A DNA stretch of 64,000 nucleotides from Hyphomicrobiaceae bacterium (GTDB lineage: Bacteria > Pseudomonadota > Alphaproteobacteria > Rhizobiales > Xanthobacteraceae), in contig CANJBX010000016.1 in NCBI GenBank assembly GCA_947472885.1, positions 1 through 64,000 on the forward strand, read 5' to 3'. The position numbers and the translations under genes are program-made. Below the pieces are notes generated by a model. It searched no databases, was not told where the DNA came from, and was given only the letters and a program-made list of their open reading frames with translations. Below are positions 7,048 to 63,364 of the stretch, one piece after another (position 1 is the stretch's first letter; each line of letters opens with the position of its first letter).

Positions 7048-8163
7048 TCAGTGTATCCCCGCAGGCTTTTTGTCCGCGAAAAGCGACTTCAGGTGCGACG
7101 GTTGCGACCGCCAATATTGCGGTGGAGCATTCACCGATGCGCCGAGTTCTGCCGCCGCGTGCCACGGCCAGCGCGCGTCATAGAGTACGCCCCGCGCCAG
7201 CGCGACGAGATCGGCCTTGCCGCTGGCGAGAATTTCCTCTGCCTGTCTGGCTTCCGTAATCAGTCCCACTGCCATAGTGGTGGCGCCGGTTGCCTGCTTG
7301 ATGCCGTCCGCAAATGGCACCTGATAGCCGGGGCCAATGGCGATCTTCTGCCCGGACGAAAGACCGCCCGACGAGGCATCGATCCAGTCGATGCCGCGCT
7401 TCTTCAGTTCGGCCACGAAGGCGATCGTCTGCGGCAAATCCCAGCCGCCATCGACCCAATCGGTCGCGGAGACGCGCACGCCAACTGGCCGGTCGTCCGG
7501 GAAAGCCGCGCGCACCGCGTCGTAGACCTCAAGCGGGAACCGCATCCGGTTTTCCAGCGACCCGCCGTATGAATCCGTGCGGTGGTTGGACAATGGCGAA
7601 AGGAACTGATGCAGCAGGTAGCCGTGTGCCGCATGAATTTCGATGGCGTCGATGCCAAGCCGCGCGGCGCGCTTCGCCGATTCCGCAAAGGCGTTGCGCA
7701 CCCGCGCGAGGCCCGCGCCATCGAGCGCATGGGGAGCGATATCCTTGTCGCTGTAGGGCAGCGGTGACGGCGCATAAGGCACCCAGCCGCTTTGCGATGC
7801 CGGGACTTGCCCGCTTCCTTCCCACGGCGCGTGGGTCGAGGCCTTGCGTCCGGCATGGGCGAGCTGCACGCCGATCTTGATGTCGGAGTAGCGGCGGACC
7901 GCGGTCAGTACGCGCTTGAGCGCGGCTTCGGTGGCATCATTGTAGAGGCCAAGATCGGTTGGTGAAATCCGCCCGTCGGGTTCGACGCCCGTGGCCTCAA
8001 GGCACAGCAGGGCCGCGCCGGACATCGCAAGGTGGCCGAGATGCATCATGTGCCAGTCGGTGGCTTCGCCGTTGACGGCGGAATACTGGCACATCGGCGA
8101 GATCACGATGCGATTGGGAAGCGTGACGCCGCGTAGCGCAAGCGGGGAGAACAGAACGCTCAT
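7048..8163 (-). CDS. Old Yellow Enzyme family NADH:flavin oxidoreductase (YqjM-like)
   Basis: This FMN-dependent ene-reductase has 371 residues from the chosen ATG at 8163 (MSVLFSPLALRG). It is of the YqjM-like class: the cysteine that tunes FMN is in SPMCQYS (residue 25), and the His pair that binds the substrate carbonyl is in EIHAAHGYLLHQFLSP (residues 177 and 180). SYGGSLENRMRFPLEV is the usual family block. The frame also reads upstream to a TTG at 8250, but that part does not resemble the family. It reduces activated C=C bonds. It is the last gene of a minus-strand run after two MetE-like genes and a TctC gene, so it may act on a compound they import or modify. Confidence 0.9.
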   Translation of the reverse strand: MSVLFSPLALRGVTLPNRIVISPMCQYSAVNGEATDWHMMHLGHLAMSGAALLCLEATGVEPDGRISPTDLGLYNDATEAALKRVLTAVRRYSDIKIGVQLAHAGRKASTHAPWEGSGQVPASQSGWVPYAPSPLPYSDKDIAPHALDGAGLARVRNAFAESAKRAARLGIDAIEIHAAHGYLLHQFLSPLSNHRTDSYGGSLENRMRFPLEVYDAVRAAFPDDRPVGVRVSATDWVDGGWDLPQTIAFVAELKKRGIDWIDASSGGLSSGQKIAIGPGYQVPFADGIKQATGATTMAVGLITEARQAEEILASGKADLVALARGVLYDARWPWHAAAELGASVNAPPQYWRSQPSHLKSLFADKKPAGIH

Positions 8164-8337
8164 GATGAGGGCTTTCAGACTGGATTTTCGGGAGGGTTTT
8201 GGTTGGCGGCGGAAGGTGCCTTGAGGACTTAAGGGTAGCGGGTCAGTCAATAGACCGCATTCAAACTAACCCACTACCAAATATAGCGGCGGGTTCGCGA
8301 TTTTCAGGACGGATAGCGATTCCATTCATCGAAGTGC

Positions 8338-9327
8338 CTATTCCTTCTGGATCTTCGCCGCCTCGACGATGCCGCGCCATTTTTCGTATTCGGCGCTGAT
8401 GGTCTGCGCCATGTCCTCCGGCGACTTCGACAGCCGTACGTCCGATCCGACGTCGAACAGGAATTTCCTGGTCTCTGGCCTGCTGCCGATTTCGGTCAGC
8501 CAGGTGAACATCTGCTTGACGATTGGGTCGGGCGTGCCCTTGGGAAACCAGGCTGCCCAGATCACCGAATAGTCGAAACTCGGCACGCCGGCTTCGGCCA
8601 TGGTCTTGAGGTTCGGCGCTGCCGACACCTTGCGCGCCGGCGTCGAGGCCAGCATGCGGACGCGGCCTTGCACATTCTGAGCCATTGCCAGTGTGATGTC
8701 GGGAAAGAAGAAGTCGATCAGGCCGGCAGTCGTGTCGGCGGCTGCATCGCCCGCGCTCTTGTAGTTTACGCGGGTTGCCTCGGCCTTGATCGCCTGCAAA
8801 TACATGTTGCTGGCGACAAGGCCGCTCGAGGTTTGCGAACCGTATAGCGCCTTGCCGTTCTTGGCTTTGATATAGGCGGTGAGGTCGGCGACCGAGTGAA
8901 TGTCGAGCTTTGGATTGACCACAAGGCCAAGCCCGAGTTCGTTCAATGTCGTGATTGGCTGGAGTGCGGTCTTGGGGTCGTAGTCGGCGCCTTTCATCAG
9001 CAGCGGATTGCCGACCCATGCCGATGCGCCGGTGATCATGAACGTGTAACCGTCGGGTTTGGCGTCCATCGCCGCCTGATTGCCAAGATGGCCGTTGGCG
9101 CCGACCTTGTTCTCCACCACGACCGGCTGGCCGATGAGTTCGCTCAGCGCGCGGGCATAGAAGCGCACCATCAGGTCGCCGCCGCCACCTGCGACGTAGG
9201 TGCAGATGATCTTGATCGGGCGATCAGGGTATGCGGCTTGTGCGGGCGATGCGAGCGCAAAGCCAAGCGCCAGTGTGGCGCAGATCAAGGCTGCGAAGTT
9301 CCGGATTTCTGCCGCGTACTTGCTCAT
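8338..9327 (-). CDS. Bug/TctC-type binding protein
   Basis: The 329-residue periplasmic protein has a signal peptide ending around residue 31 (SPAQAA), then YPDRPIKIICTYVAGGGGDLMVRFYAR, the family opening with four glycines. Other family blocks are NQAAMDAKPDGYTFMITG and LVVNPKLDIHSVADLTAYIKAKNG. GAGAGAG precedes the ATG. It lies 88 bases downstream of a MetE-like gene and upstream of an Old Yellow Enzyme, all on the minus strand, which suggests one operon. The cognate membrane subunits are not in the window. The ligand is probably a carboxylate. Confidence 0.9.
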   Translation of the reverse strand: MSKYAAEIRNFAALICATLALGFALASPAQAAYPDRPIKIICTYVAGGGGDLMVRFYARALSELIGQPVVVENKVGANGHLGNQAAMDAKPDGYTFMITGASAWVGNPLLMKGADYDPKTALQPITTLNELGLGLVVNPKLDIHSVADLTAYIKAKNGKALYGSQTSSGLVASNMYLQAIKAEATRVNYKSAGDAAADTTAGLIDFFFPDITLAMAQNVQGRVRMLASTPARKVSAAPNLKTMAEAGVPSFDYSVIWAAWFPKGTPDPIVKQMFTWLTEIGSRPETRKFLFDVGSDVRLSKSPEDMAQTISAEYEKWRGIVEAAKIQKE

Positions 9328-9415
9328 GGCTCTCTCCCCGCGATGGCCCGATACGTGCCCGACCTGTATTTGTCGTTCGAGTAGAAACGCGGGAGGTGCG
9401 ATGCGCGGCCCCGCG

Positions 9416-10519
9416 CTAGTGCCACACCTTGCGCGCGGTATCGACGATCAACTCCAGTTTCCGTTTCTGCTGATCGCTCGTCATGTGCGCGCCGTCACGG
9501 CTCGCCGAACCCTGGAAACCGCACTGGGTGGAAATCGCGAGTTGCTCGACGGGACAGAATTTACTAGCCTGCTCGATGCGGCGCAGCAGGTCGTCCTGCT
9601 TCTCCAATATCGGACTGGTGCTGCTCACGAGGCCCAGCACGGCAATCTTGCCTTTCGGCATGAAACGCAGCGGCTCGAATCCGCCGACCTTGTCGCTGTC
9701 GTATTCGAGCAGGAAGCGATCGACATGTAGCTTGTGAAACAGATGCTCGGCGAGGAAATCGTAACTGCCGCGGCCACGATTGAAGCTGGCGCGGCTGCCG
9801 CGGCAAAGGTGCATCGCGAGCGTCAGGCCTTCGCGGCGCACGGCGTCGTAACAGGCGTTCTCCAGCGCGACATCTTCGTCCATCGCGGTTTCGGGATTGG
9901 CATCGGGACCCAGTGCCTTGAGGCGGTCGGGATCGGCGTAAGCCGTGAAACCCTCGTCGAGCTGCAGATAGGATGCGCCATCGGCGACCAGTGCTTTCAT
10001 CTCGCCCTGCACGATGGCGCCGACATCGCGGCGAAGCTCCGCCGTGTCGGGATAGGCCTTGTCGGTAACGCCGACCTTGTAGCTGTTGCGGGAGATCACC
10101 GCCGGGCTTGGCATGGTGATCTTGAACGGGCCGGGCGAATGCTTGCGCAGAAAATCCGCATCGATCTGCGCCAGCCGCCGTGCCTGTTGCAGCTTGCCAC
10201 GGATCGCCTTGGTGTGCATTTGCAGCCGGACGTGGCGGCCGTCCTCGCGGATCATTTCGCGAATGGGATAAGTGTCTTCGAAGCCATCAACGGCCTCGCT
10301 GAAATTGGTTTGCCAGGCGTCGCGCCGCATCTCGCCATCGCTGAAGATTGGCAGGCCGAGGTCATTCTGCATCTTCAGAACGTCAAGCACGGCCTCGTCT
10401 TCGACAAGGCGCAGTGCGGCGAGGGTTATCTTGCCAGTCTTGCGCTCTTCGCGCGCGTCGAGGAGTTTCGCCGGCCGCACGAGGCTGCCGATCTGATCGA
10501 CGCGATAGGTCTTCGTCAT
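9416..10519 (-). CDS. MetE-C-like zinc protein, subfamily A (MHLCRG type)
   Basis: This 367-residue protein matches the C-terminal zinc half of cobalamin-independent methionine synthase and lacks the N-terminal folate half. The start at MTKTYRVDQIGSLVRP fits the family core. Zinc-site residues equivalent to MetE His-x-Cys, Glu and Cys are present: MHLCRG, FLLEYD and STQCGF. The fold binds a thiolate on zinc for alkyl transfer, as in MetE and epoxyalkane:CoM transferase. The methyl donor and acceptor cannot be told from sequence. It lies 72 bases behind a second MetE-like gene and ahead of a TctC gene, probably in one operon. It closely resembles the protein at 60996-62126. Confidence 0.82.
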   Translation of the reverse strand: MTKTYRVDQIGSLVRPAKLLDAREERKTGKITLAALRLVEDEAVLDVLKMQNDLGLPIFSDGEMRRDAWQTNFSEAVDGFEDTYPIREMIREDGRHVRLQMHTKAIRGKLQQARRLAQIDADFLRKHSPGPFKITMPSPAVISRNSYKVGVTDKAYPDTAELRRDVGAIVQGEMKALVADGASYLQLDEGFTAYADPDRLKALGPDANPETAMDEDVALENACYDAVRREGLTLAMHLCRGSRASFNRGRGSYDFLAEHLFHKLHVDRFLLEYDSDKVGGFEPLRFMPKGKIAVLGLVSSTSPILEKQDDLLRRIEQASKFCPVEQLAISTQCGFQGSASRDGAHMTSDQQKRKLELIVDTARKVWH

Positions 10520-10591
10520 GCGTGTGCCCCATTTACGCAGCAATAAATTTTAGTGAAACGCTCGAAACAGGCTGGTTCGTAATTTAAAATT

Positions 10592-11743
10592 TCAGCCCCA
10601 CAATTCCTTGCTCGCCAGCCTTGCGCCTTCTGCGAGGCTTTCGAACTTCGCCCACATCACCTGCGGGTGCACACGCTGCACGCCTTCCGATTGCGCAAAG
10701 CCGCAGTCGGTTGAGGCGATGACGTTCTCGCGTCCGACCAGCTTGGCAAAGCGCGCGATGCGTTCGGCGACAAGGCGCGGGTGCTCGACGGTCGTGGTGT
10801 GGTGGGTGACGACGCCGGGGATCAGGATTTTTCCGGCGGGCAGCTTGGTTTTTTCCCAGACGTGCCATTCATGCTCGTGGCGCACGTTGGCGGCCTCGAT
10901 GGAATAGGCGCCGGCGTTCACCTTCAGCATCAGATCCACGATCTCTTCCAGCGGCGCATCCGATGTGTGCGGCACATGCCAACTGCCGAAACAGATGTGA
11001 TAACGAACGCGGTCCTGTGGAATACCCTCGAGCGCCTTGTTGAGCGCGGCGACGCGCAGCTCCGCCCAGTCGCGGTATTTCTTCGGGCTCTGCTCGGTGA
11101 GATAGTCGTACATGTTGGCGAGTACGGCATCATCCACTTGCAGGACGAAGCCGGCGTCAACGATCGCCTTGTATTCCTCCGCCAGCGCATTGGCGATGGC
11201 GAATACATAGTCTTCGTCGTTCTTGTAATGCTCCTGACTGGCATCGTAGCCGACACTGGCCGGTGCAACTGCGGTGTAGAAGATTTCGTCCGGGTTCGCG
11301 CCCTTCAGGCCTTCCTTGAAGGCTGCGAGTGCTTCCTTGAGGCTTTGCTGTCCGGTGTATTTGATCGGGCCGATGCAGGCGTCCGTCGGTGAGCCGATGG
11401 CGCCGCGCGGAAATTCCTTGGCCATGAACTCGGCGAACTTGAAGCGCTCGCGCCCTAGCCATACCGCGGGGCGCATTTCGTTCGGACGATGCTCGAAGCC
11501 GCTCATGCGGGTGAGCGCGTAGTTTGCCCAGCTCGATTTGCCGTGTTCGCCGTCGTTGATGATGTCGATGCCGGAGGCGATCTGCTTTTTCACCACCTCG
11601 GCGATGGAACTGCGCGTTGCTTCCTCGAAGGCGTGCTGATCCGCCGCACTATTTTTCGCCTTTGCCGCCGCATCAAGCAACGCCTGCGGGCGGATGATGC
11701 TGCCGACATGGGTCGTGCGAATGCGGGTGTCGCTACGTTTCAT
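10592..11743 (-). CDS. MetE-C-like zinc protein, subfamily B (HICFGS / RHEHEW type)
   Basis: A 383-residue MetE C-terminal-like protein. The start at 11743 (MKRSDTRIRTTHVGSIIRP) has GAGGAAG just upstream. Candidate zinc residues are in YHICFGSWHVPH (His-x-Cys), in IEAANVRHEHEW (Glu followed by a distinctive His-Glu-His), and in STDCGFAQ (Cys). The RHEHEW motif and the aspartate in VLQVDDAVLA separate it from the neighbouring subfamily A protein, so the two are not simple duplicates. The product at 48254-49489 shares this subfamily. It is the first gene of the MetE-B, MetE-A, TctC, OYE run. Confidence 0.8.
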   Translation of the reverse strand: MKRSDTRIRTTHVGSIIRPQALLDAAAKAKNSAADQHAFEEATRSSIAEVVKKQIASGIDIINDGEHGKSSWANYALTRMSGFEHRPNEMRPAVWLGRERFKFAEFMAKEFPRGAIGSPTDACIGPIKYTGQQSLKEALAAFKEGLKGANPDEIFYTAVAPASVGYDASQEHYKNDEDYVFAIANALAEEYKAIVDAGFVLQVDDAVLANMYDYLTEQSPKKYRDWAELRVAALNKALEGIPQDRVRYHICFGSWHVPHTSDAPLEEIVDLMLKVNAGAYSIEAANVRHEHEWHVWEKTKLPAGKILIPGVVTHHTTTVEHPRLVAERIARFAKLVGRENVIASTDCGFAQSEGVQRVHPQVMWAKFESLAEGARLASKELWG

Positions 11744-12874: not shown

Positions 12875-14008
12875 TCAGCGAAAATGTTTCGACAGTTTCA
12901 AATTTTGCGCTTGGTAATTCGAGCCGATGTTTTGTCCGTAGAGTGTATCGGGCCGCGCGAGCATGCGCTCATACACCAATCGCCCGACAAGCTGGCCATG
13001 TTCGAGAATGAACGGCACTTCGCGCGAACGCACTTCAAGAACAGCGCGCGCGCCGCGCCCTCCGGCGCCCGCATAACCAAAGCCGGGATCGAAGAAACCC
13101 GCGTAGTGCACGCGAAACTCGCCGACGAGTGGATCGAACGGCACCATCTCCGCGGCGTAATCCGGCGGCACTTGAACCGCTTCTTTTGAGGCGAGAATAT
13201 AAAACTCGTCGGGATCGAGAATGAGACTCTCGTCGCGGCGCGCGGCAATCGGTTCCCAGAATTCGCCGACGTCGTAGCTGGCGCGGCGATCGACATCGAT
13301 CAGGCCGGTATGACGCTTGGCGCGATAGCCAACCAGTCCGTCAGGACCGAAGCCTGACAGATCGACACCGACGCCGATGCCTTCGTTCATGTCTGCATCG
13401 GTATCGTCGACCAGACGTTCTGCTGCGTGCAGATCGGCGAGTGCTTCGCTGTCGAGTACGGCGTGGCCGTGGCGAAAACGGATTTGAGAAAGCCGCGAGC
13501 CCTCGCGCACCAGCACGGGAAACGTGCGTGGTGAGATTTCAGCGTAGAGCGGTCCATGATAGCCGGCTTCGATGCGGTCGAAGCCGCGCATGTTGTCGGC
13601 GATCACGCGTGTGAAGACATCGAGGCGGCCGGTTGAGCTTTTCGGGTTTGCGGCTGCGGCGACGTTGTATGGCAACGCCAGCGTCTCCATCACCGGCACG
13701 ATATAGACGCAGCCGGTTTCCAGCACTGCGCCATCGCTCAGTGAAATTTCATGCAGCTTGAGGTCTTCGATGCGGTCGGCGACCGTGGTGCGGGGGCCGG
13801 GCAGGAAGCTCGCGCGCACGCGATAGGCGATGTCGCCCAGCCGCAGGTCGAGGCTCGCCGGCTGGATCTGCCCAGGCAGGAAGTCCTGCGACGGCAGGAT
13901 CGCGCCCGCTTCCGCGAGCGCGTGGATCATGGCATCCGGCAGGATGCCTTTTTCTTCCGGGTCGAAGACGAGGTCCAAAATGTGGCTTCCGGTGAGAGGT
14001 GCGAACAC
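12875..14008 (-). CDS. dcd: 2'-deoxycytidine 5'-triphosphate deaminase, long two-domain form
   Basis: At 377 residues this is about twice the length of the E. coli enzyme and matches the long alphaproteobacterial dCTP deaminase, two dUTPase-like barrels in tandem. It converts dCTP to dUTP, the precursor of dTMP. The N-terminal half contains GILPDAMIHALAEAG, QIQPASLDLRLG and PKSSTGRLDVFTR. A second barrel at about residues 240-370 contains EFRVHYAGFFDPGFGYAG and REVPFILEHGQLVGRLVYE. It stands alone upstream of the SAM-II/metZ unit, transcribed divergently. The first 20 residues are less conserved, so the true start could be slightly downstream. Confidence 0.9.
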   Translation of the reverse strand: MFAPLTGSHILDLVFDPEEKGILPDAMIHALAEAGAILPSQDFLPGQIQPASLDLRLGDIAYRVRASFLPGPRTTVADRIEDLKLHEISLSDGAVLETGCVYIVPVMETLALPYNVAAAANPKSSTGRLDVFTRVIADNMRGFDRIEAGYHGPLYAEISPRTFPVLVREGSRLSQIRFRHGHAVLDSEALADLHAAERLVDDTDADMNEGIGVGVDLSGFGPDGLVGYRAKRHTGLIDVDRRASYDVGEFWEPIAARRDESLILDPDEFYILASKEAVQVPPDYAAEMVPFDPLVGEFRVHYAGFFDPGFGYAGAGGRGARAVLEVRSREVPFILEHGQLVGRLVYERMLARPDTLYGQNIGSNYQAQNLKLSKHFR

Positions 14009-14178
14009 CAGTAATATCAGCCTATGCGTCGCCTACCAGCCTGCGCAGCCGGTGGGCGAGGGGGCTGGGGATATGTCGCGCCCGGTGGGTGTAGCCCATT
14101 GCGCATGGGAGGCCGGGTGATATCGCGGGGCGGGGCTACCTTGACGCATGCGGGGGCCGCGCGTAGTTTTTTGCTACT

Positions 14179-14236
14179 TCGTGGTCATTTGAGCCGGCTG
14201 GCTTGCACGCCACGTTAAACAAGCTGCTAAAAGGCC
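14179..14236 (+). promoter_or_regulatory. SAM-II riboswitch aptamer upstream of metZ
   Basis: The sequence follows the SAM-II consensus closely. CGTGGTCATTTG (14180-14191) is followed by CCGGCT, the P1 partner GCCACG and then TTAAAC (ending 14220), and finally GCTAAAAGG, which forms the H-type pseudoknot. SAM-II aptamers bind S-adenosylmethionine and occur in alphaproteobacteria ahead of methionine genes. Here the aptamer is followed by an intrinsic terminator and metZ, so SAM should lower metZ expression, probably by transcription termination. Confidence 0.93.
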
Positions 14237-14255
14237 GTGGGACATGAGCCATGTA

Positions 14256-14313: not shown

Positions 14314-15513
14314 ATGTCCGCTGCATCGAGCAATCCGCCGCCCGCATTCCATCCCGAAACCGAGCTGGTGCACGGCGGAACGATGCGTTCGCAGTTCGGC
14401 GAGACGTCCGAGGCGCTCTTCCTCACGCAGGGCTTTGTCTATGACAGCGCCGAACAATGCGAGGCGCGATTCAAGGGCGAGGACCCGGGCTATCTCTATT
14501 CGCGCTTTTCCAATCCGACTGTCGCGATGTTCGAGAAGCGCATGTGCCTTCTCGAAGGCGCGGAAGCGGCGCGGGCGACCGCGTCCGGCATGGCGGCGGT
14601 GACGGCGTCGCTGGTCAGCCAGCTCAAGGCCGGGGATCACGTTGTGGCGGCGAAGGCGCTGTTCGGCTCGTGCCGTTACGTGGTGGAAGACCTGCTGCCG
14701 CGCTTCGGCGTGCCGTCCACCCTGGTCGATGGCGCCGACCTCGATCAATGGCGCAAGGCGATGAAACCCAATACCAAGGCAGTGTTCCTCGAAAGCCCGA
14801 CCAATCCGACGCTCGATGTCTATGACATCGGCGAGATTTCAAAGATCGCGCATTCGGTCGGCGCCACTGTCATCGTCGATAACGTGTTCGCGACGCCGTT
14901 GTTTCAGAGTCCGCTCAAGCTCGGTGCCGACGTCGTCGTCTATTCGGCAACCAAGCACATCGATGGCCAGGGCCGTGTGCTGGGCGGCATCATCCTGTCG
15001 TCGGAAAAGTTCATTCAGGAAAACGTCCATCAGTTCCTGCGGCAGACCGGGCCTTCGATGTCGCCGTTCAATGCATGGGTGCTGCTGAAGGGGCTTGAGA
15101 CATTACACATTCGCGTCGCGCGGCAGACCGAAAGCGCCGCCAAGGTCGCGGACGTGCTGGCCAGGCATTCGAACATCACGCGGCTGATTTATCCCGGCCG
15201 TGCGGACCATCCGCACGCCGCAATCATCAAGAAGCAGATGAGCGGCGGTTCTAACATTATCGCGTTCGATGTAGCCGGCGGGAAACCCGCTGCATTCAAG
15301 TTCCTGAATGCGCTCCGGCTCGCCAAGATCAGCAACAACCTCGGCGACGCCAAGAGCATTGTGACGCATCCCGCGACCACGACGCACCAGCGCCTCAAGC
15401 CCGAGGACCGCGCCGAGCTTGGCATCACCGACGGAACTGTGCGGCTTTCGGTCGGGCTTGAATATGCTGACGACATCGCTGGCGATCTTGTCAGCGCGCT
15501 CGATAAAATCTGA
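14314..15513 (+). CDS. metZ: O-succinylhomoserine sulfhydrylase
   Basis: The 399-residue Cys/Met metabolism PLP enzyme makes homocysteine from O-succinyl- or O-acetylhomoserine and sulfide, directly upstream of methionine. The PLP lysine is in YSATKHIDGQGRVLGG (about residue 213). The phosphate-binding and active-site Tyr region is YLYSRFSNPTV, and the C-terminal block NLGDAKSIVTHPATTTHQRL is typical of MetZ. The start is set at ATG 14314 because GAAGGAG precedes it by seven bases. An upstream TTG start would fall inside the terminator T-run. Control by SAM is expected from the riboswitch. Confidence 0.93.
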   Translation: MSAASSNPPPAFHPETELVHGGTMRSQFGETSEALFLTQGFVYDSAEQCEARFKGEDPGYLYSRFSNPTVAMFEKRMCLLEGAEAARATASGMAAVTASLVSQLKAGDHVVAAKALFGSCRYVVEDLLPRFGVPSTLVDGADLDQWRKAMKPNTKAVFLESPTNPTLDVYDIGEISKIAHSVGATVIVDNVFATPLFQSPLKLGADVVVYSATKHIDGQGRVLGGIILSSEKFIQENVHQFLRQTGPSMSPFNAWVLLKGLETLHIRVARQTESAAKVADVLARHSNITRLIYPGRADHPHAAIIKKQMSGGSNIIAFDVAGGKPAAFKFLNALRLAKISNNLGDAKSIVTHPATTTHQRLKPEDRAELGITDGTVRLSVGLEYADDIAGDLVSALDKI

Positions 15514-48253: not shown

Positions 48254-49489
48254 TCAGCTCCGCTTCTTGGCTTTCTTGGCTGGTACTTTCTTTGCGGCTT
48301 TCGCCGGTTTAGTTGCCGCTTTCTTTTTTACAGTGGCTTTTTTCGCAGCAGGCTTTCTCGCGGGCGCTTTCTTCGCCACCTTTTTCTTCGCCCACAATTC
48401 CCTGCTCGCAATCCGCGCGCCTTCGACCATCGCCTCCAGCTTCGCCCAGGTCAGCTCGGCGTGCGGCAGGCGCGTCGCCAGTCCGCAATCGGTGCCGGCG
48501 ATCACATTGTCGCGCCCGACAATGTTGGCAAACGTGATGAGCCGGTCGGCGACGATGCGCGGATGCTCGATGATGTCGCTGGCGTGACCCACCACGCCGG
48601 GCATCAATGTGACGCCGTCGCGCAGCTTGCGGCCCTGCCAGACGCGCCATTCGTGTTCATGGCGTACATTGGCGAATTCAAACGATATGCTCTGCGCTTT
48701 CACCTTCAGCACGATGTCGATGATGGCCTCAAACGGAATGTCGTTCTTGTGCGGGCCATGGTTCGAGCCCCAGCAGATATGCAGCCGGACTTTATCCGGT
48801 GAAATTCCGCGCAAGGCATGATTGAGCGCCTCGACGCGCAGGCTGGCGTAGCGGCGATAATCCTTCACCGACATTTCGGGGAACATCTGCCAGCCGTCCG
48901 GCAGGTCCGGGTCGTCGATCTGCACCAGAAAGCCTGCGTCGGTGATCGCCTTGTATTCGTGGTGCATGGCGTCGGCGATGGCGTAGAGGAATTTTTCCTC
49001 GTTGTGATAGTGGCCGTCCTGCAACCAGTGTTCGATGGTGCCGGGTGCAATCGACGGCAGGTAGGCCTGCGCATCGACGCCGGTCATCGCGCTGTTGAGG
49101 TTGCGGATGTCCGTCTGCGTGATGTCCTGACCGAGATAGGTCAGCGGCCCGTCGCACAGCGCGAGATTGGTGCCCCAGTTCTTGAACTTGGCGGCGACGA
49201 AGCCCGGAAAGTCGATGGCGTCGCGGCCCATGACGCTGAGCCGCTTGCGGGTGCCGTCAGTTGCCGAAATGCCGCCGATGCGGTCGCGGACATATTCCGA
49301 AAAGCCGCGCACCTTGGAATATTCGCCGTCGTTGACGATATCGATGCCCATGTTGGCCTGACGGCGCACGACATTGGCGACGGCGGCGGAGAGCGTTTCC
49401 TGTGCGCCCGATGCGTTGGTTTGCAATGCCTCTTTCAGACCGTCGGGACGCGGCAGCGTGCCGGCGTGCGACACCAGAATGCGATCCAT
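48254..49489 (-). CDS. MetE-C-like zinc protein, subfamily B, with histone-H1-like tail
   Basis: A 411-residue MetE C-terminal-like protein, subfamily B: LHICWGSNHGPH (His-x-Cys), FEFANVRHEHEW (Glu plus His-Glu-His) and GTDCGLAT (Cys) form the likely zinc site. VQIDDPDLPDGW matches the acidic loop of the other B protein. The last 44 residues (368-411) are a low-complexity Lys/Ala/Pro tail with 19 lysines, starting KKVAKKAPARKPAAKK. This kind of tail occurs in H1-like DNA-binding proteins and AlgP. It is seen here in frame with no change of reading. The gene follows a PhyH dioxygenase gene by 41 bases. Confidence 0.8.
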   Translation of the reverse strand: MDRILVSHAGTLPRPDGLKEALQTNASGAQETLSAAVANVVRRQANMGIDIVNDGEYSKVRGFSEYVRDRIGGISATDGTRKRLSVMGRDAIDFPGFVAAKFKNWGTNLALCDGPLTYLGQDITQTDIRNLNSAMTGVDAQAYLPSIAPGTIEHWLQDGHYHNEEKFLYAIADAMHHEYKAITDAGFLVQIDDPDLPDGWQMFPEMSVKDYRRYASLRVEALNHALRGISPDKVRLHICWGSNHGPHKNDIPFEAIIDIVLKVKAQSISFEFANVRHEHEWRVWQGRKLRDGVTLMPGVVGHASDIIEHPRIVADRLITFANIVGRDNVIAGTDCGLATRLPHAELTWAKLEAMVEGARIASRELWAKKKVAKKAPARKPAAKKATVKKKAATKPAKAAKKVPAKKAKKRS

Positions 49490-49530: not shown

Positions 49531-50361
49531 CTATTTCGCCGCTGCGGGTTCAGCGTCCTGCTTGTGGTTCTTGTCACGGTAGTGACTGTTGGCCTTGTGC
49601 ATCAGGTCCATGATGACCGGATCGCGGTCGCGCGTCGGCAGCGGGTCGTGGTCCCAGTGGCCGAAGCGATCCTGCCCGCTGATGAGCGTCGCCGAGCGCC
49701 GGCCGATGGCGGACTCGACGCTCGCCGGAATGAACATCATCGCAAAGCCGATGCGGCGGTCGTCGGATGTGTTGGGCTCGGACGAATGCAGCACATGGCC
49801 GTGGTGGATCGAGAATTCGCCGGGCTTCAATACGCAGTCGAACGCGCCGGTGTCGTCTACGTCCGCGACCTCCTGGCCGCGCGACAGGAGGTTGTCCGCA
49901 TTGTGCGTTTCGATGTGCTTGTGGGTGCCGCTTTTGTGCGAGCCGGGAATGACGCGCATACAGCCGTTGTCGCGCGTCACTTCGTTGAGCGCGAGCCAGG
50001 CCGTGATGATGGTCGGCGGCTTCAGCCCGAAGTAGGCGTGGTCCTGATGCCAGCTCACGTATTTGCGGTCCTGCGCGTCCTTGATCCAGAACCGCGATGC
50101 CATGATGAACAGGTCTTCGCCGACCAGGTCCGAGATCGCGCCGACGAGCCGCGGGTTGCGCGCCAGCTGATACGCCCAGTCGAAATACAGATGGCCCTTG
50201 ATGTGGATCGTATCGACGGCGGGCTTGCCGGTCTCGGCCTCATAGGCTTCGAGCTTGCTGCGGCAGTCCGAGGCTTCCTGTTCGGACACAGCCATCACCG
50301 GCGACAGGATTCCGGTTTCGTGGAACTGGCGGACCTGTGCCTCGGTCAGAACTTTTCCCAT
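49531..50361 (-). CDS. PhyH-family Fe(II)/2-oxoglutarate dioxygenase (2)
   Basis: The 276-residue dioxygenase has iron ligands His105 and Asp107 in VSWHQDHAYFG and His192 in HGHVLHSSEPN. The 2-oxoglutarate arginine is in DDRRIGFAMMF. It starts MGKVLTEAQVRQFHETGILSPV. The nearest relatives by motif are PhyH proteins that act on small secondary metabolites. It lies between the IorB gene and MetE-B on the minus strand, probably in the same transcript. Confidence 0.88.
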   Translation of the reverse strand: MGKVLTEAQVRQFHETGILSPVMAVSEQEASDCRSKLEAYEAETGKPAVDTIHIKGHLYFDWAYQLARNPRLVGAISDLVGEDLFIMASRFWIKDAQDRKYVSWHQDHAYFGLKPPTIITAWLALNEVTRDNGCMRVIPGSHKSGTHKHIETHNADNLLSRGQEVADVDDTGAFDCVLKPGEFSIHHGHVLHSSEPNTSDDRRIGFAMMFIPASVESAIGRRSATLISGQDRFGHWDHDPLPTRDRDPVIMDLMHKANSHYRDKNHKQDAEPAAAK

Positions 50362-59430: not shown

Positions 59431-60978
59431 ATGACCACGCCCGACTATGATGTCGCCATCATCGGCTATGGGCCGGTCGGCGCAGCATTGGCAAACTTGT
59501 TAGGGCTGAGCGGCCTGAAGGTCGCGGTGCTGGAGCGCGAGCCGTCGCTCTATCACATGCCACGCGCGGTTTCGCTCGATGGTGAAGGAATGCGCTTGTT
59601 ACAGACCATCGGGCTTGCGGAAAAGCTGCTGCCGAAACTCAACGTCAGCCGCAACATTCGCCACGTCAACACCGAGGGCAAGCTGCTGGTGCTGATCGCG
59701 CGCGGCGGCATTGGCCCCGACGGCTGGAACAACGCCTATCGTTTCTTTCAGCCCGAACTCGAAGGCGTGCTGCGCGAAGGCGTTGCAAGGTTTGCCGGCG
59801 TCGATGTGAAACTGCGCAGCGATGTATTCGCGCTCGATGAGGGCGACGATCATGTGCAGCTGCGCTACGAGAACCTCGGCAACGGCGAACTCAGTTCGCT
59901 GACCGCGCGTTATGTCGTCGGCTGCGACGGCGCGCGCTCGACGGTGCGGCGCTTCATGGGCGCAGCCTTGCAGGATCTGCGCTCGCATGAACGCTGGATC
60001 GTGCTGGATATGGTTCTCGATACGCCGCCCGCCGGTGTGCCGGAAGCGGCTGATGAGAGCGGCAAAATCATCGATGCGATTCAATATTGCGATCCGGCGC
60101 GGCCGACGACATTCATTCCGATGCCCGGCAAGCGCCACCGCTGGGAATTCATGCTGATGCCCGGCGACGATCCGGTGAAGATCGTGCTGTCGGACACGAT
60201 CTATAACTTGCTGAAGCCATGGAAGATCGATCCGGCAAAATCGCAGATCGAACGCGCGGTGGTCTACACGTTCCATTCCTCGCTGGCGACCAGCTGGCGG
60301 CGCGGCCGCCTGCTGCTCGCGGGTGACTCGGCGCACCAGATGCCGCCGTTTCTTGGCCAGGGCATGGGTTCGGGCCTGCGCGATACCATCAACCTGGCGT
60401 GGAAACTGCGCGATGTGGTGCAGGGCCGGGCAGTGGATACGCTGCTCGACAGTTACGAGACCGAGCGCATGGAGCATGTGCGCGCCTATATCGAACTGGC
60501 GGTTGAACTCGGCGGTGTCATCCAGGCGACGGACCCTGAGAAGGCGCGCCAGCGTGACATCGAGCTGCTTGCCAACCCGACGATGCTGAAACCGCTGGCG
60601 CCGCGCCTTGGCCCCGGCCTTCACGGCTCGGCGGCGGCGCCCGCCGGTACGCGCGCCGAACAACCCAGGCTCGCCAATGGCGAACGCATCGACGACCGCG
60701 CGGGATATCGCTTCGCCGTGCTGGCCGCGCCGGACTTCGCCGCGGCGTTGCCGCCGGACACGCTTGCCGCGCTCAACGATCTCGATGCGATGGTCGTCGC
60801 AGCGGATGGCGATTCAAGCGGCTATCTCGCGCGCCTCAATGCGCGCGCCATCGTCATCCGCCCCGACCGGCATAATCTCGGCGTGGCATCAACCGCCGTC
60901 GAACTCGATCTCATCCTCGCGCATGTGCCGCTGCTCGCTACCTCGACGCCGCCGCCGCGCGCGGTCGCGAATTTCTAG
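59431..60978 (+). CDS. FAD-dependent aromatic hydroxylase, MhpA-like
   Basis: The 515-residue group A flavin hydroxylase resembles 3-(3-hydroxyphenyl)propionate hydroxylase. The FAD motif is AIIGYGPVGAALANLLGLSGLKVAVLERE, the DG motif is VVGCDGARSTVRRFMG, and the GD motif is LLAGDSAHQMPPFLGQGMGSGLRDTINLAWKL. The C-terminal thioredoxin-like domain of this family is present (about residues 400-515). It ortho-hydroxylates a phenolic acid to give a catechol, which a VOC dioxygenase such as the upstream gene could cleave. The gap to it is 15 bases. Confidence 0.88.
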   Translation: MTTPDYDVAIIGYGPVGAALANLLGLSGLKVAVLEREPSLYHMPRAVSLDGEGMRLLQTIGLAEKLLPKLNVSRNIRHVNTEGKLLVLIARGGIGPDGWNNAYRFFQPELEGVLREGVARFAGVDVKLRSDVFALDEGDDHVQLRYENLGNGELSSLTARYVVGCDGARSTVRRFMGAALQDLRSHERWIVLDMVLDTPPAGVPEAADESGKIIDAIQYCDPARPTTFIPMPGKRHRWEFMLMPGDDPVKIVLSDTIYNLLKPWKIDPAKSQIERAVVYTFHSSLATSWRRGRLLLAGDSAHQMPPFLGQGMGSGLRDTINLAWKLRDVVQGRAVDTLLDSYETERMEHVRAYIELAVELGGVIQATDPEKARQRDIELLANPTMLKPLAPRLGPGLHGSAAAPAGTRAEQPRLANGERIDDRAGYRFAVLAAPDFAAALPPDTLAALNDLDAMVVAADGDSSGYLARLNARAIVIRPDRHNLGVASTAVELDLILAHVPLLATSTPPPRAVANF

Positions 60979-60995: not shown

Positions 60996-62126
60996 ATGGT
61001 TGCTTCTCGCGTCCCGCAGAACTCCGTCGATCACGTCGGCAGCCTCAAGCGGCCGCCGGAACTGGTGCAGGCGTGGCGCGACTGGGAGGCCGGCAAGCTG
61101 CCGTTCGAGGCGCTGCACGAAATCCAGAACAGCATGATTACGCAGGCCGTCGCGATGCAGGAGCGGCTTGGCCTTCCCATCGTCAGCGATGGCGAATTCC
61201 GGCGCGGCGGTTGGTCGCGCGGCTTTCTCAATGCGGTCGACGGTTTCGAGTTTCGCGCCTCGAAGCTGACGTTCCGTAACGATCAGGGCGTCTCAACGGC
61301 GTCGCCCGCGCCGGTGGCGTCGGCGAAGATCAGGCGCAAGCAACCCATCGTCACTGGCGATTTCAAATTTCTCAAATCCGTCGCGCATAATCGCATCAAG
61401 GTGACGATGCCGACGCCGTCGCACATGCACTTCGGCCAGTTCAAGGAGGCGGTGGACCGCAAGGTCTATCCGGGCGACGACGCTTACTGGGACGACATGA
61501 TTGCGGTGTTCCAGCAGGAGATGAAGGAAGTCTATACTGCCGGCTGCCGCTACCTGCAGCTCGATGAAGTGCCGCTGGCGCTGCTTTGCGACAAGAACAT
61601 CCGCGAGCTTGCAAGGAGCGAAGACGACGATCCCGACAAGCTCGTGAACCTCTATATCGACGTGCTCAACCGTGCGATTGCGGGCCGCCCTGCGGACCTC
61701 ACCGTCGGCATGCACCTGTGCCGCGGCAACATGGAAGGCCTGTGGATGGGCGACGGCGGCTACGCGCCGATTGCGGACGCCTTGTTCAACCGCAGCGACG
61801 TCGATGCGTTCCTCCTCGAATACGACACGCCGCGCGCGGGCGACTTTGCGCCGCTGAAATATGTCCCCGCCGGCAAGCGGGCCTATCTCGGCTTCGTCAG
61901 CACGAAAAATCCTGAAATCGAATCCATGGATTCGCTGATGCGCCGCATCGAAGAAGCGCAGAAATACGCGCCGATGGATCGCCTCGGCATCTGCCCGCAG
62001 TGCGGCTTCTCCAGCGCGGCGATGTCGAAGTTCGCCATCCTGCCGAGCAAGGTCACGGTCGATATCCAGACGCTCAAGATCGAGCGGCTGGTCGAAGCCG
62101 GCACCAAAGCATGGGGCCACGCATGA
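60996..62126 (+). CDS. MetE-C-like zinc protein, subfamily A (MHLCRG type)
   Basis: This 376-residue MetE C-terminal-like protein belongs to the same subfamily as 9416-10519. Zinc-site residues are in VGMHLCRGN (His-x-Cys), FLLEYDTPR (Glu) and ICPQCGFSS (Cys). The N-terminal folate half is absent. It starts MVASRVPQNSVDHVGSLKRPPELV, which matches the MetE core opening. A Zn-dependent methyl or alkyl transfer to a thiol is the family chemistry. An O-demethylation role is only a hypothesis. Its TGA overlaps the P450 start (ATGA, 62123-62126). Confidence 0.82.
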   Translation: MVASRVPQNSVDHVGSLKRPPELVQAWRDWEAGKLPFEALHEIQNSMITQAVAMQERLGLPIVSDGEFRRGGWSRGFLNAVDGFEFRASKLTFRNDQGVSTASPAPVASAKIRRKQPIVTGDFKFLKSVAHNRIKVTMPTPSHMHFGQFKEAVDRKVYPGDDAYWDDMIAVFQQEMKEVYTAGCRYLQLDEVPLALLCDKNIRELARSEDDDPDKLVNLYIDVLNRAIAGRPADLTVGMHLCRGNMEGLWMGDGGYAPIADALFNRSDVDAFLLEYDTPRAGDFAPLKYVPAGKRAYLGFVSTKNPEIESMDSLMRRIEEAQKYAPMDRLGICPQCGFSSAAMSKFAILPSKVTVDIQTLKIERLVEAGTKAWGHA

Positions 62127-63364
62127 GCAAACCAGCAGTCAGTGACGCGGGTGCAGACAGCTACGGCCTGTTCACCGCCCCAGCGGTCCAGGACCCTTAC
62201 CCCTATTACAAGGAGTTGCGCGAGCGCGATCCGGTCCACTGGTCCGAGATCGCGCAGGCCTGGTACTTCACGCGCTACAACGATGTATTCGAGTTGCAGG
62301 ATCGCCCGGACCTCAGCGTTGACCGGATCGAGACGATCTATTCCTATTTGCCCAGCGTGAATGCCGGGCGCTTCAGCGAAATCGTCGAGCATTACAATCG
62401 CTGGCTCCTTTATCGTGACGACGCCTATCACGACCGCCTGAAGGCGCTGTTCATCAAGGCCATGACGCCGCGCGCGGTCGAACGGTTGCGCCCGATGATC
62501 CAGCAGCGGGTGGACAGCCTGCTCGATGTGCTGGCGCAAAAACCCGCATTCGACGCCTATCTCGATTTCGCGGCGCGCATTCCGACGCAGGTCATGCTCG
62601 ATCTCCTCGGCCTGCCGGACGAGGACGAAGCGCTGATGCGGCACTGGAGCGACCGCTGCTCCAGTTTCCTGTTTCAGCCGGTCGCGCCCGACAAGGAAGC
62701 GCTGGCGCAGGAGCAGCGCGACATTCTCGATGCGCAGCAGGAATATTTCATGCCGGTCATCGAAGCCCGCCGCGCCAAGCCAGGCCCCGACATGATCAGC
62801 GCCATGGTGACGGCGAACGCCAGCGGCGACCGGCTGAGCGATCTTGAAATTCTTGCGACCTGCAACATGATGGCGACGGCGGGCGGCGGCACCTCGCGCA
62901 GCGCCATCGCCATGGCGCTGTGGCGGCTGCATCAGTTTCCGGCCGAACTTGCGAAGCTGAAAGCAAATCCCGGCCTGATCGACCTCGCCGCAGAAGAGTT
63001 CCTGCGCTTTGAGGCGCCAACCCAGCGCGGCATCCGCACCGCACACGAGGATTTCGAGGTCGATGGCCGTAAAATTCAAAAGGGCCAGTTGCTTCACATC
63101 ATGATCGGCGCCGCCAACCGCGATCCCGCGCAGTTCGACCGGCCCGACGCCATCGACGTTGCGCGCAATCCGAACCGCCATGTCTCGCTCGGCCACGGCG
63201 TCCACTATTGCCTCGGCGCGGCGCTGGCCCGGCTGGAGCTGCGCGTGGCGGTCAAAGGCTTCCTGGCGCGCTTCCCGGACTATCGTCTGGTCTCGGACAA
63301 CATCACCTTCATGGACCGCACCGCCAGCCGCCGACCGACCGCCGTGCCGGTCCTGACCCACTGA
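62123..63364 (+). CDS. cytochrome P450
   Basis: At 413 residues it is a soluble class I bacterial P450. The ExxR pair is Glu292 and Arg295 in EEFLRF. The heme cysteine is Cys363 in GHGVHYCLGAALARLE. The I-helix region is ATAGGGTSRSA (residues 251-260), in which the usual acid-threonine pair of AGxD/ETT is changed to GGTS. That could alter oxygen activation or be a family feature. The start overlaps the MetE-like stop by 4 bases. No ferredoxin or reductase gene is in view. Confidence 0.92.
   Translation: MSKPAVSDAGADSYGLFTAPAVQDPYPYYKELRERDPVHWSEIAQAWYFTRYNDVFELQDRPDLSVDRIETIYSYLPSVNAGRFSEIVEHYNRWLLYRDDAYHDRLKALFIKAMTPRAVERLRPMIQQRVDSLLDVLAQKPAFDAYLDFAARIPTQVMLDLLGLPDEDEALMRHWSDRCSSFLFQPVAPDKEALAQEQRDILDAQQEYFMPVIEARRAKPGPDMISAMVTANASGDRLSDLEILATCNMMATAGGGTSRSAIAMALWRLHQFPAELAKLKANPGLIDLAAEEFLRFEAPTQRGIRTAHEDFEVDGRKIQKGQLLHIMIGAANRDPAQFDRPDAIDVARNPNRHVSLGHGVHYCLGAALARLELRVAVKGFLARFPDYRLVSDNITFMDRTASRRPTAVPVLTH

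Follow-up and report, generated by a model that had tools for sequence, protein, structure and literature searches.

Two multiplied subfamilies of MetE-C-like proteins in a Hyphomicrobiaceae genome: possible homocysteine S-methyltransferases with non-folate donors in catabolic gene clusters

A stretch of 64,000 nucleotides from a Hyphomicrobiaceae bacterium (assembly GCA_947472885.1, contig CANJBX010000016.1, positions 1 to 64,000; hereafter the window) carries a run of four genes, two of which encode proteins of subfamilies A and B that resemble the catalytic half of the methionine synthase MetE. The A and B proteins may be zinc-dependent homocysteine S-methyltransferases fed by donors other than folate, perhaps by methoxyaromatics, and multiplied into catabolic gene clusters, a reading to which we give not quite an even chance. 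Its directly computed support consists of the match of the modelled folds, the zinc ligands, the homocysteine triad, the missing folate half, the two clades, the copy number and the context of tandem gene arrays. From these we infer a donor other than folate; its identity is a guess. The run lies on the minus strand in the order B, A, TctC-type receptor, Old Yellow Enzyme (OYE), with gaps of 72, 88 and 174 bases:

10592..11743, minus strand: subfamily B MetE-C-like protein, 383 amino acids (PF01717, 56.5 bits; B clade)
9416..10519, minus strand: subfamily A MetE-C-like protein, 367 amino acids (PF01717, 41.1 bits; A clade)
8338..9327, minus strand: TctC-type solute receptor, 329 amino acids (PF03401, 134 bits)
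7048..8163, minus strand: Old Yellow Enzyme family oxidoreductase, 371 amino acids (PF00724, 218.9 bits), 174 bases after the receptor gene

The OYE is counted from an ATG start, the longest frame reaching 8250 from a TTG. Coordinates and Pfam matches confirm the run as the first-pass annotation had described it, together with its statement that the folate half of MetE is absent: PF01717 is the sole Pfam domain in A and B. The same annotation had all zinc-site residues kept, which holds for both window proteins and for every A and B protein of the genome. In the E. coli MetE numbering of Price et al. (as given in the part of PMC7857596 consulted), the genome's full MetE has the expected residue at all seven active-site positions. 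The four zinc ligands (H641, C643, E665 and C726 in E. coli) are present in 23 of 23 A and B proteins of the genome (12 A, 11 B), corresponding to H249, C251, E283 and C347 in window B and to H237, C239, E272 and C333 in window A. The homocysteine triad S433/E484/D599 is exact in both window proteins (S15, E66 and D204 in B; S12, E63 and D188 in A) and in 21 of the 23, the two exceptions being conservative (one A carries D in place of E, one B carries T in place of S). An alignment of 74 A proteins shows no variation at S12, D188, H237, C239, E272 and C333 and hardly any at E63. One of 15 B proteins shows none at the zinc ligands, E66 and D204, and the serine position is a gap in three and a different residue in two of the 13 B proteins from other genomes.

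The AlphaFold2 model of window B (predicted local distance difference score, pLDDT, 88.4; predicted template modelling score, pTM, 0.91) has MesD (3rpd) as its best match in the PDB and matches MetE structures too. That of window A (pLDDT 91.4, pTM 0.91) matches MetE structures and the Listeria protein 1ypx; window A itself has a match to 1ypx at E 7e-47. We infer that A and B bind zinc, and the ligands and predicted folds support the zinc-thiolate chemistry proposed for the pair. Past the zinc ligand E283, residues 286-292 of window B form a nearly invariant B motif, N-x-R-H-E-H-E, which none of the compared A, MetE and MesD rows shows and which could be a second metal or acid-base site.

The triad also bears on the identity of the thiol. 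In EtnE of Nocardioides JS614, found beside alkene monooxygenase genes and the one reference for epoxyalkane:coenzyme M transferases (EaCoMT) in the comparison, N and K occupy the first two positions of the triad (433/484), where A and B have S and E. Since A and B keep the triad and EtnE lacks two of its three residues, an amino-acid thiol is indicated as acceptor rather than coenzyme M. Because the triad is kept and YxjG-like members of A stand under S-adenosylmethionine (SAM) and B12 riboswitches, homocysteine is the likeliest acceptor and methionine the likeliest product for both subfamilies. The earlier view that the pair serves catabolism rather than methionine synthesis is for the same reasons not borne out in its second part.

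A tree of 59 proteins resolves A as one clade and B as another, each requiring a single label change in all of 200 bootstrap trees, and the division into two subfamilies stands. The A clade also includes two YxjG-like proteins, both passing PRK06520, and a Klebsiella plasmid protein. MesD, EtnE, MetE and two further proteins of the genome on the MesD side fall outside both clades, the exact placement of MetE and EtnE being unsure on their long branches. By sequence, A thus appears to be a widened YxjG/YxjH group, and B a separate clade in which no named member was found. We take PRK06520 and PRK06233 to be the models tied to the names YxjG and YxjH; the comparison contained no YxjG sequence. 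A is like this group, to which 1ypx is also assigned, in length, zinc ligands and triad, and lies inside the clade with the PRK06520 members, whereas B lies outside it. Against the PRK06520 subfamily cut-off of 313 bits, window A (231 bits) and window B (93.5 bits) fail and a second A protein of the window (317.6 bits) passes.

Comparison with the MesD and EaCoMT families, which had been suggested at the outset, separates A and B from both. With MesD they share the stand-alone catalytic half, the zinc ligands and the homocysteine triad (PMC7857596, in the part consulted). MesD forms a separate clade, however, and on the PRK09121 (MesD) equivalog, with its cut-off of 392 bits, A scores 63.1 and B 64.3, against 687 for a MesD encoded beside MesX. 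The partner MesX (PF08908) was not found in the genome, in a search whose own controls gave no match and for which a separate control record was positive. MesD identity was rejected on these three grounds. EtnE shares with A and B the zinc ligands, the stand-alone domain and catabolic use; an EaCoMT-like identity was rejected, given its position in another clade (one reference, on a long branch) and the loss of two triad residues. The MesD-side proteins of the genome are encoded at L011:8966-9991 (L numbers designate loci), which passes the PRK09121 equivalog and whose start lies 2 bases beyond a FAD monooxygenase gene, and at L010:8835-9881, 28 bases from an intradiol dioxygenase gene.

Under the proposed mechanism, A and B would be of the 'core methionine synthase' kind, that is, the catalytic half of MetE without its folate half. 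Zinc would hold homocysteine as a thiolate, which would take a methyl group from a donor other than 5-methyl-tetrahydrofolate and yield methionine. Both subfamilies would have been multiplied in this genome and its relatives and placed in catabolic clusters, such that a demethylation step supplies methionine and SAM. Among single donor classes, methoxylated aromatic acids, or these acids in oxygenated form, would be the likeliest.

The copy number is high. A profile search of the 3.88-Mb draft genome returns 35 PF01717 domain matches. Gene prediction at the retrieved loci, done with a home-made codon-usage script, gives at least 26 PF01717 genes, a 27th hit being a truncated duplicate from an overlapping locus. 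By the tree these comprise 12 A, 11 B, two MesD-side genes and one full MetE of 780 amino acids; the window itself contains two A and two B. Of 41 genomes surveyed, the 16 that belong to other families of the order yield 0-3 matches each, and those of the same family, the present one included, range from 0 to at least 39. In a sample of 119 genomes of the family, 83 hold a relative of A at E 1e-30 or better and 43 a relative of B at E 1e-60 or better; the highest per-genome counts in both surveys are lower bounds. The expansion is thus patchy and, in the sample surveyed, restricted to the family.

The strongest functional hint comes from loci in which A genes stand in tandem. Arrays of two to five A genes occur in the stretches read, with up to five in relatives. 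Some of the genes overlap by 1-4 bases; in L069, where the overlap is 23 bases, a single broken frame is the probable cause. Many array clusters also contain a branched-chain-type importer (recognised by eye and with home-made profiles), a short-chain dehydrogenase/reductase, an MFE2-type hydratase, an acyl-CoA dehydrogenase and a family III CoA-transferase. For the members other than the importer Pfam was run on one example each; the hydratase recurs in 12 loci. Seventeen loci were classed as array-type by a tandem array or the same cluster (L016, L056-L067, L106, L109, L180 and L184). A protocatechuate-type ring-cleavage enzyme is encoded in eight of these 17, which come from related genomes and are not independent, against none of 40 control regions (Fisher p 1.5e-5). 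The genes are pcaGH in L065, L106, L109, L180 and L184, with equivalogs confirmed in L065, L106 and L184, and class III extradiol ligB-type genes in L016, L063 and L066, with ligA also in L016 and L066. Omission of L016, L065 and L066, whose genes had been seen before the search, leaves five of 14 (p 0.0006). L016 belongs to the present genome, where a three-gene A array lies beside ligAB-type genes. The occurrence of two unrelated ring-cleavage enzymes at the same type of array points towards methoxylated phenylpropanoid or benzoic acids.

Oxygenase genes are common neighbours in this genome. The second A and B genes of the window each adjoin one or more of them:

48254..49489, minus strand: second subfamily B protein, 411 amino acids, with a Lys/Ala-rich basic tail (B clade; alignment)
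49531..50361, minus strand: PhyH-family oxygenase of the Fe/2-oxoglutarate type (PF05721, 102.8 bits), 41 bases upstream of the second B gene
59431..60978, plus strand: FAD monooxygenase (home-made family profile and by eye), 17 bases before the second A gene
60996..62126, plus strand: second subfamily A protein, 376 amino acids (A clade; NF005085, 317.6 bits against a cut-off of 313)
62123..63364, plus strand: cytochrome P450 (home-made family profile and by eye), overlapping the second A gene by 4 bases

Besides these, the oxygenase neighbours include BoxB (equivalog) and a luciferase-like protein, and among the MesD-side genes an intradiol dioxygenase at one and a FAD monooxygenase at the other. 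Families in the neighbourhood tests were assigned with home-made profiles, many neighbours being named by eye only. An oxygenase lies within four genes of A at five of ten A loci and of B at one of 11 B loci, against two of 38 random anchors (p 0.0025 for A). It is the operonic neighbour of six of 23 core genes in this genome against four of 346 random genes (p 5e-6), the three tandem genes of L016 being entered once; both tests are partly circular, as the oxygenase families were picked after the loci had been viewed. At L014:1515-5882 an A gene is preceded by boxC and boxB, both of them equivalogs, which yield an epoxide. A molybdopterin-binding subunit of the xanthine-dehydrogenase type occurs near A in four of 20 loci (L175, L177, L181 and L193) and in none of 60 controls (p 0.003), a result for one among some two dozen families tested. 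The operonic partners of A in loci drawn from genome contigs, 86 of 87 of which entered a Pfam tally, are diffuse, with 108 families, the top ones in five members. No A gene was called in four of these 80 loci, and their counts rest on 76. Basic Lys/Ala/Pro-rich C-terminal tails resembling histone H1 occur in three of the 11 B paralogues (48254-49489 of the window, L020:5821-7137 and L027:5091-6440), and that of the second B protein of the window is even matched by a valine-tRNA ligase model.

Methionine synthesis proper has its own genes in this organism. The first-pass annotation had taken metZ as a sign of ordinary methionine synthesis, and metZ indeed passes its NCBIfam equivalog:

14171..14250, plus strand: SAM-alpha riboswitch upstream of metZ (RF00521, 69.8 bits against a gathering score of 36)
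14314..15513, plus strand: metZ, O-succinylhomoserine sulfhydrylase of the ordinary homocysteine route (NF005696, 726 bits against a cut-off of 675)

The gene for the full MetE adjoins and follows a MetF-like gene (named by eye), so that a separate normal methionine route is supported. One further SAM-alpha match in the genome, at C20:44084, scores 31.2 bits, below the cut-off. Upstream of the 25 core genes no methionine-regulon riboswitch reaches its gathering score, and control of A and B by such elements in this genome was rejected. Elsewhere, a SAM riboswitch lies just upstream of the Priestia YxjG-like gene and a cobalamin riboswitch upstream of the Rhodovulum one, and some A members therefore belong to a methionine regulon; the A genes of this genome differ from them in lacking such an element and, in several cases, in standing in catabolic clusters. 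The yxjH gene of L. paracasei is under a methionine T-box (PMC6004538, in the part consulted). The genome's own MetE likewise has no riboswitch, so the absence upstream of A and B does not set them apart from an ordinary synthase. A cobalamin riboswitch of 120 bits at L019:13209-13426 precedes a gene at 13717 that resembles a TonB receptor by eye.

Where examined elsewhere, the window run is not conserved as a whole. In L068, which holds the nearest relative of window A (62%), the order of A followed by TctC is kept, with a TctC that is 58% identical and that is the best relative of the window TctC among 61 compared. The called genes beside the A of L068 include no OYE, and the 266 bases upstream, where the contig begins, hold no trace of B. 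A single other relative of the window OYE was found among all called genes, beside neither A nor B; we saw no conserved partnership for it, and its part in a functional unit of the window is doubtful. Relatives of window B at 67-73% occur in seven other genomes, and the neighbourhoods read include a nearby A gene in one of these genomes only (G124). The idea that TctC and OYE form a conserved unit together with A and B was accordingly rejected; of the window run, only A with TctC was seen elsewhere, in L068. B lies within 1.5 kb of A in six of the 76 genome-contig loci, a set in which seven of the 13 B genes are so placed, as well as in two of 20 loci of relatives. The six loci belong to Chloroflexota, Beijerinckiaceae, Pseudonocardiaceae (where the A neighbour is a 238-amino-acid fragment) and Hyphomonadaceae. 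The A-B pairing of the window thus recurs across phyla, yet most A genes have no adjoining B. The B-type gene of 605 amino acids at L085:6186-8003, which 7 bases separate from a preceding A-type fragment, may be a fusion or reflect a miscalled frame.

Several of these results, and some others, weigh against homocysteine methyltransferases with non-folate donors in catabolic clusters. No methionine riboswitch marks the core genes of this genome, a sign of little weight since its MetE has none either. Nine of the 17 array-type loci have no ring-cleavage gene in view, and the relatedness of these loci lowers their weight. B shows no excess of oxygenases within four genes (1/11 against 2/38), and the link seen for A, partly circular here, is not recovered in other sets: an oxygenase is within four genes in 4/20 other loci against 5/60 (p 0.15), adjoins 8/100 A and B genes against 19/422 distal genes in genome-contig loci (p 0.12) and adjoins 1/27 against 2/356 in loci of relatives (p 0.20). 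An adjoining receptor indicates the import of some solute and says nothing of its chemistry, and a LigM gene beside A could equally mean that folate is the methyl carrier. We know of no precedent for the attack of a zinc-bound thiolate on an aryl methyl ether. The catabolic role put forward in the first-pass annotation is accordingly upheld in part: several A genes and both MesD-side genes have catabolic neighbours, but TctC and OYE name no substrate, and no conserved link to OYE was seen.

A more specific form of the proposal makes A, and perhaps B, a new class of O-demethylases, aerobic and independent of both folate and cobalamin. The zinc-bound homocysteine thiolate would take the methyl group of methoxylated aromatic acids, or of the oxygenated intermediate of a neighbouring oxygenase, and the paralogues and arrays would represent versions suited to different substrates. 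For MesX and MesD, a methyl supply that depends on oxygen has been proposed. The methyl donor of this aerobic system is described as an open question in PMC7857596 (in the part consulted). We regard this form as possible though unlikely.

LigM and DesA, the tetrahydrofolate (THF)-dependent aryl O-demethylases, would serve the same step and share clusters with A in four loci. LigM equivalogs occur in three of the 17 array-type loci (L063, L180 and L184) against none of 40 controls (p 0.02), and a DesA equivalog lies two genes from A in L099. Both belong to the GcvT family (PF01571) and use folate as acceptor, unlike A and B. Their presence suggests that A and B could instead be a methyl sink for folate, taking 5-methyl-THF from such demethylases and regenerating THF without the N-terminal half, and the cobalamin riboswitch before an A member is what would be expected of a substitute for MetH. 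We consider this quite unlikely, since A and B lack the folate half and one synthase would suffice where arrays reach five. The genome, moreover, has one weak partial GCV_T match, and no LigM-type demethylase was found in it with the GCV_T profile, yet it carries the three-gene array beside ligAB-type genes. Three VanA_C matches are present in the genome, one of them close to a MesD-side gene.

Solute receptors direct attention to donors of another kind, namely betaines, sulfonium compounds or S-methylmethionine brought in through TctC, tripartite ATP-independent periplasmic (TRAP) or branched-chain-amino-acid-type importers, with A and B replacing the BHMT/MmuM fold as onium demethylases. Zinc-bound homocysteine is known to accept methyl groups from donors of this kind. 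No PF02574 protein (MetH/BHMT/MmuM type) was found in the genome, where nine of 14 control genomes were positive, and genes annotated urtABC follow the Klebsiella A-clade gene. A receptor lies within four genes at six of ten A loci against six of 38 random anchors. As an operonic neighbour it occurs at 3/23 genes against 7/346 in this genome (p 0.02; two separate loci) and at 6/27 against 13/356 in relatives (p 0.001; four separate loci), some genes in these counts sharing one receptor. The adjoining receptor recurs and its type varies, TctC in the window and mostly branched-chain-type in relatives. The excess within four genes was not confirmed in other loci (8/20 against 15/60, p 0.16), nor was adjacency in genome-contig loci (3/100 against 6/422, p 0.24), and in a neighbour scan that was not exhaustive no betaine or dimethylsulfoniopropionate gene was recognised beside A or B. 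On balance onium donors seem rather improbable.

The genes might also be ordinary spare methionine synthases of a catabolism-rich genome, their neighbours having come together by chance and the window run being no functional unit. The inclusion of riboswitch-controlled members in A, the lack of conservation of the run where it was sought and the failure of the oxygenase link outside this genome all fit such a view. What does not fit is the presence of two dozen divergent genes alongside a normal MetE, the tandem arrays and the repeated clustering with ring-cleavage genes, and we think the view distinctly unlikely. Least probable of all, and very unlikely in our estimate, are thiol-to-electrophile transferases similar to EaCoMT that would add a thiol to epoxides, quinones or enoyl-CoA from neighbouring oxygenases: A and B are of the same superfamily as EtnE and have epoxide-making neighbours such as BoxB with BoxC, as well as a P450, but EtnE falls outside both clades with N and K in place of S and E (one EaCoMT compared), and homocysteine would be a costly thiol for such a role.

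The coupling of demethylation to methionine synthesis in the proposed homocysteine methyltransferases has a parallel in MtgC/MtgD, which link glycine betaine demethylation to methionine synthesis but are cobalamin-dependent and of other families than A and B (PMC12478193, in the part consulted). A different methyltransferase family in diversified clusters is described in PMC10418091 (in the part consulted). We found no paper on expansions of A or B, or on MetE-like proteins in demethylation or catabolism, in a search outside which most subscription papers lay.

Methionine synthases that work without folate are already known. The genome described here holds 23 A and B genes and two MesD-side copies without MesX, some of them in oxygenase operons, and the methyl donors of such enzymes may therefore be readable from gene context. 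If these donors are methoxyaromatics, A and B would supply a missing route for the methyl groups of lignin; and if the proteins are O-demethylases independent of folate and cobalamin, the methoxyl groups of lignin would be converted to methionine in one step.

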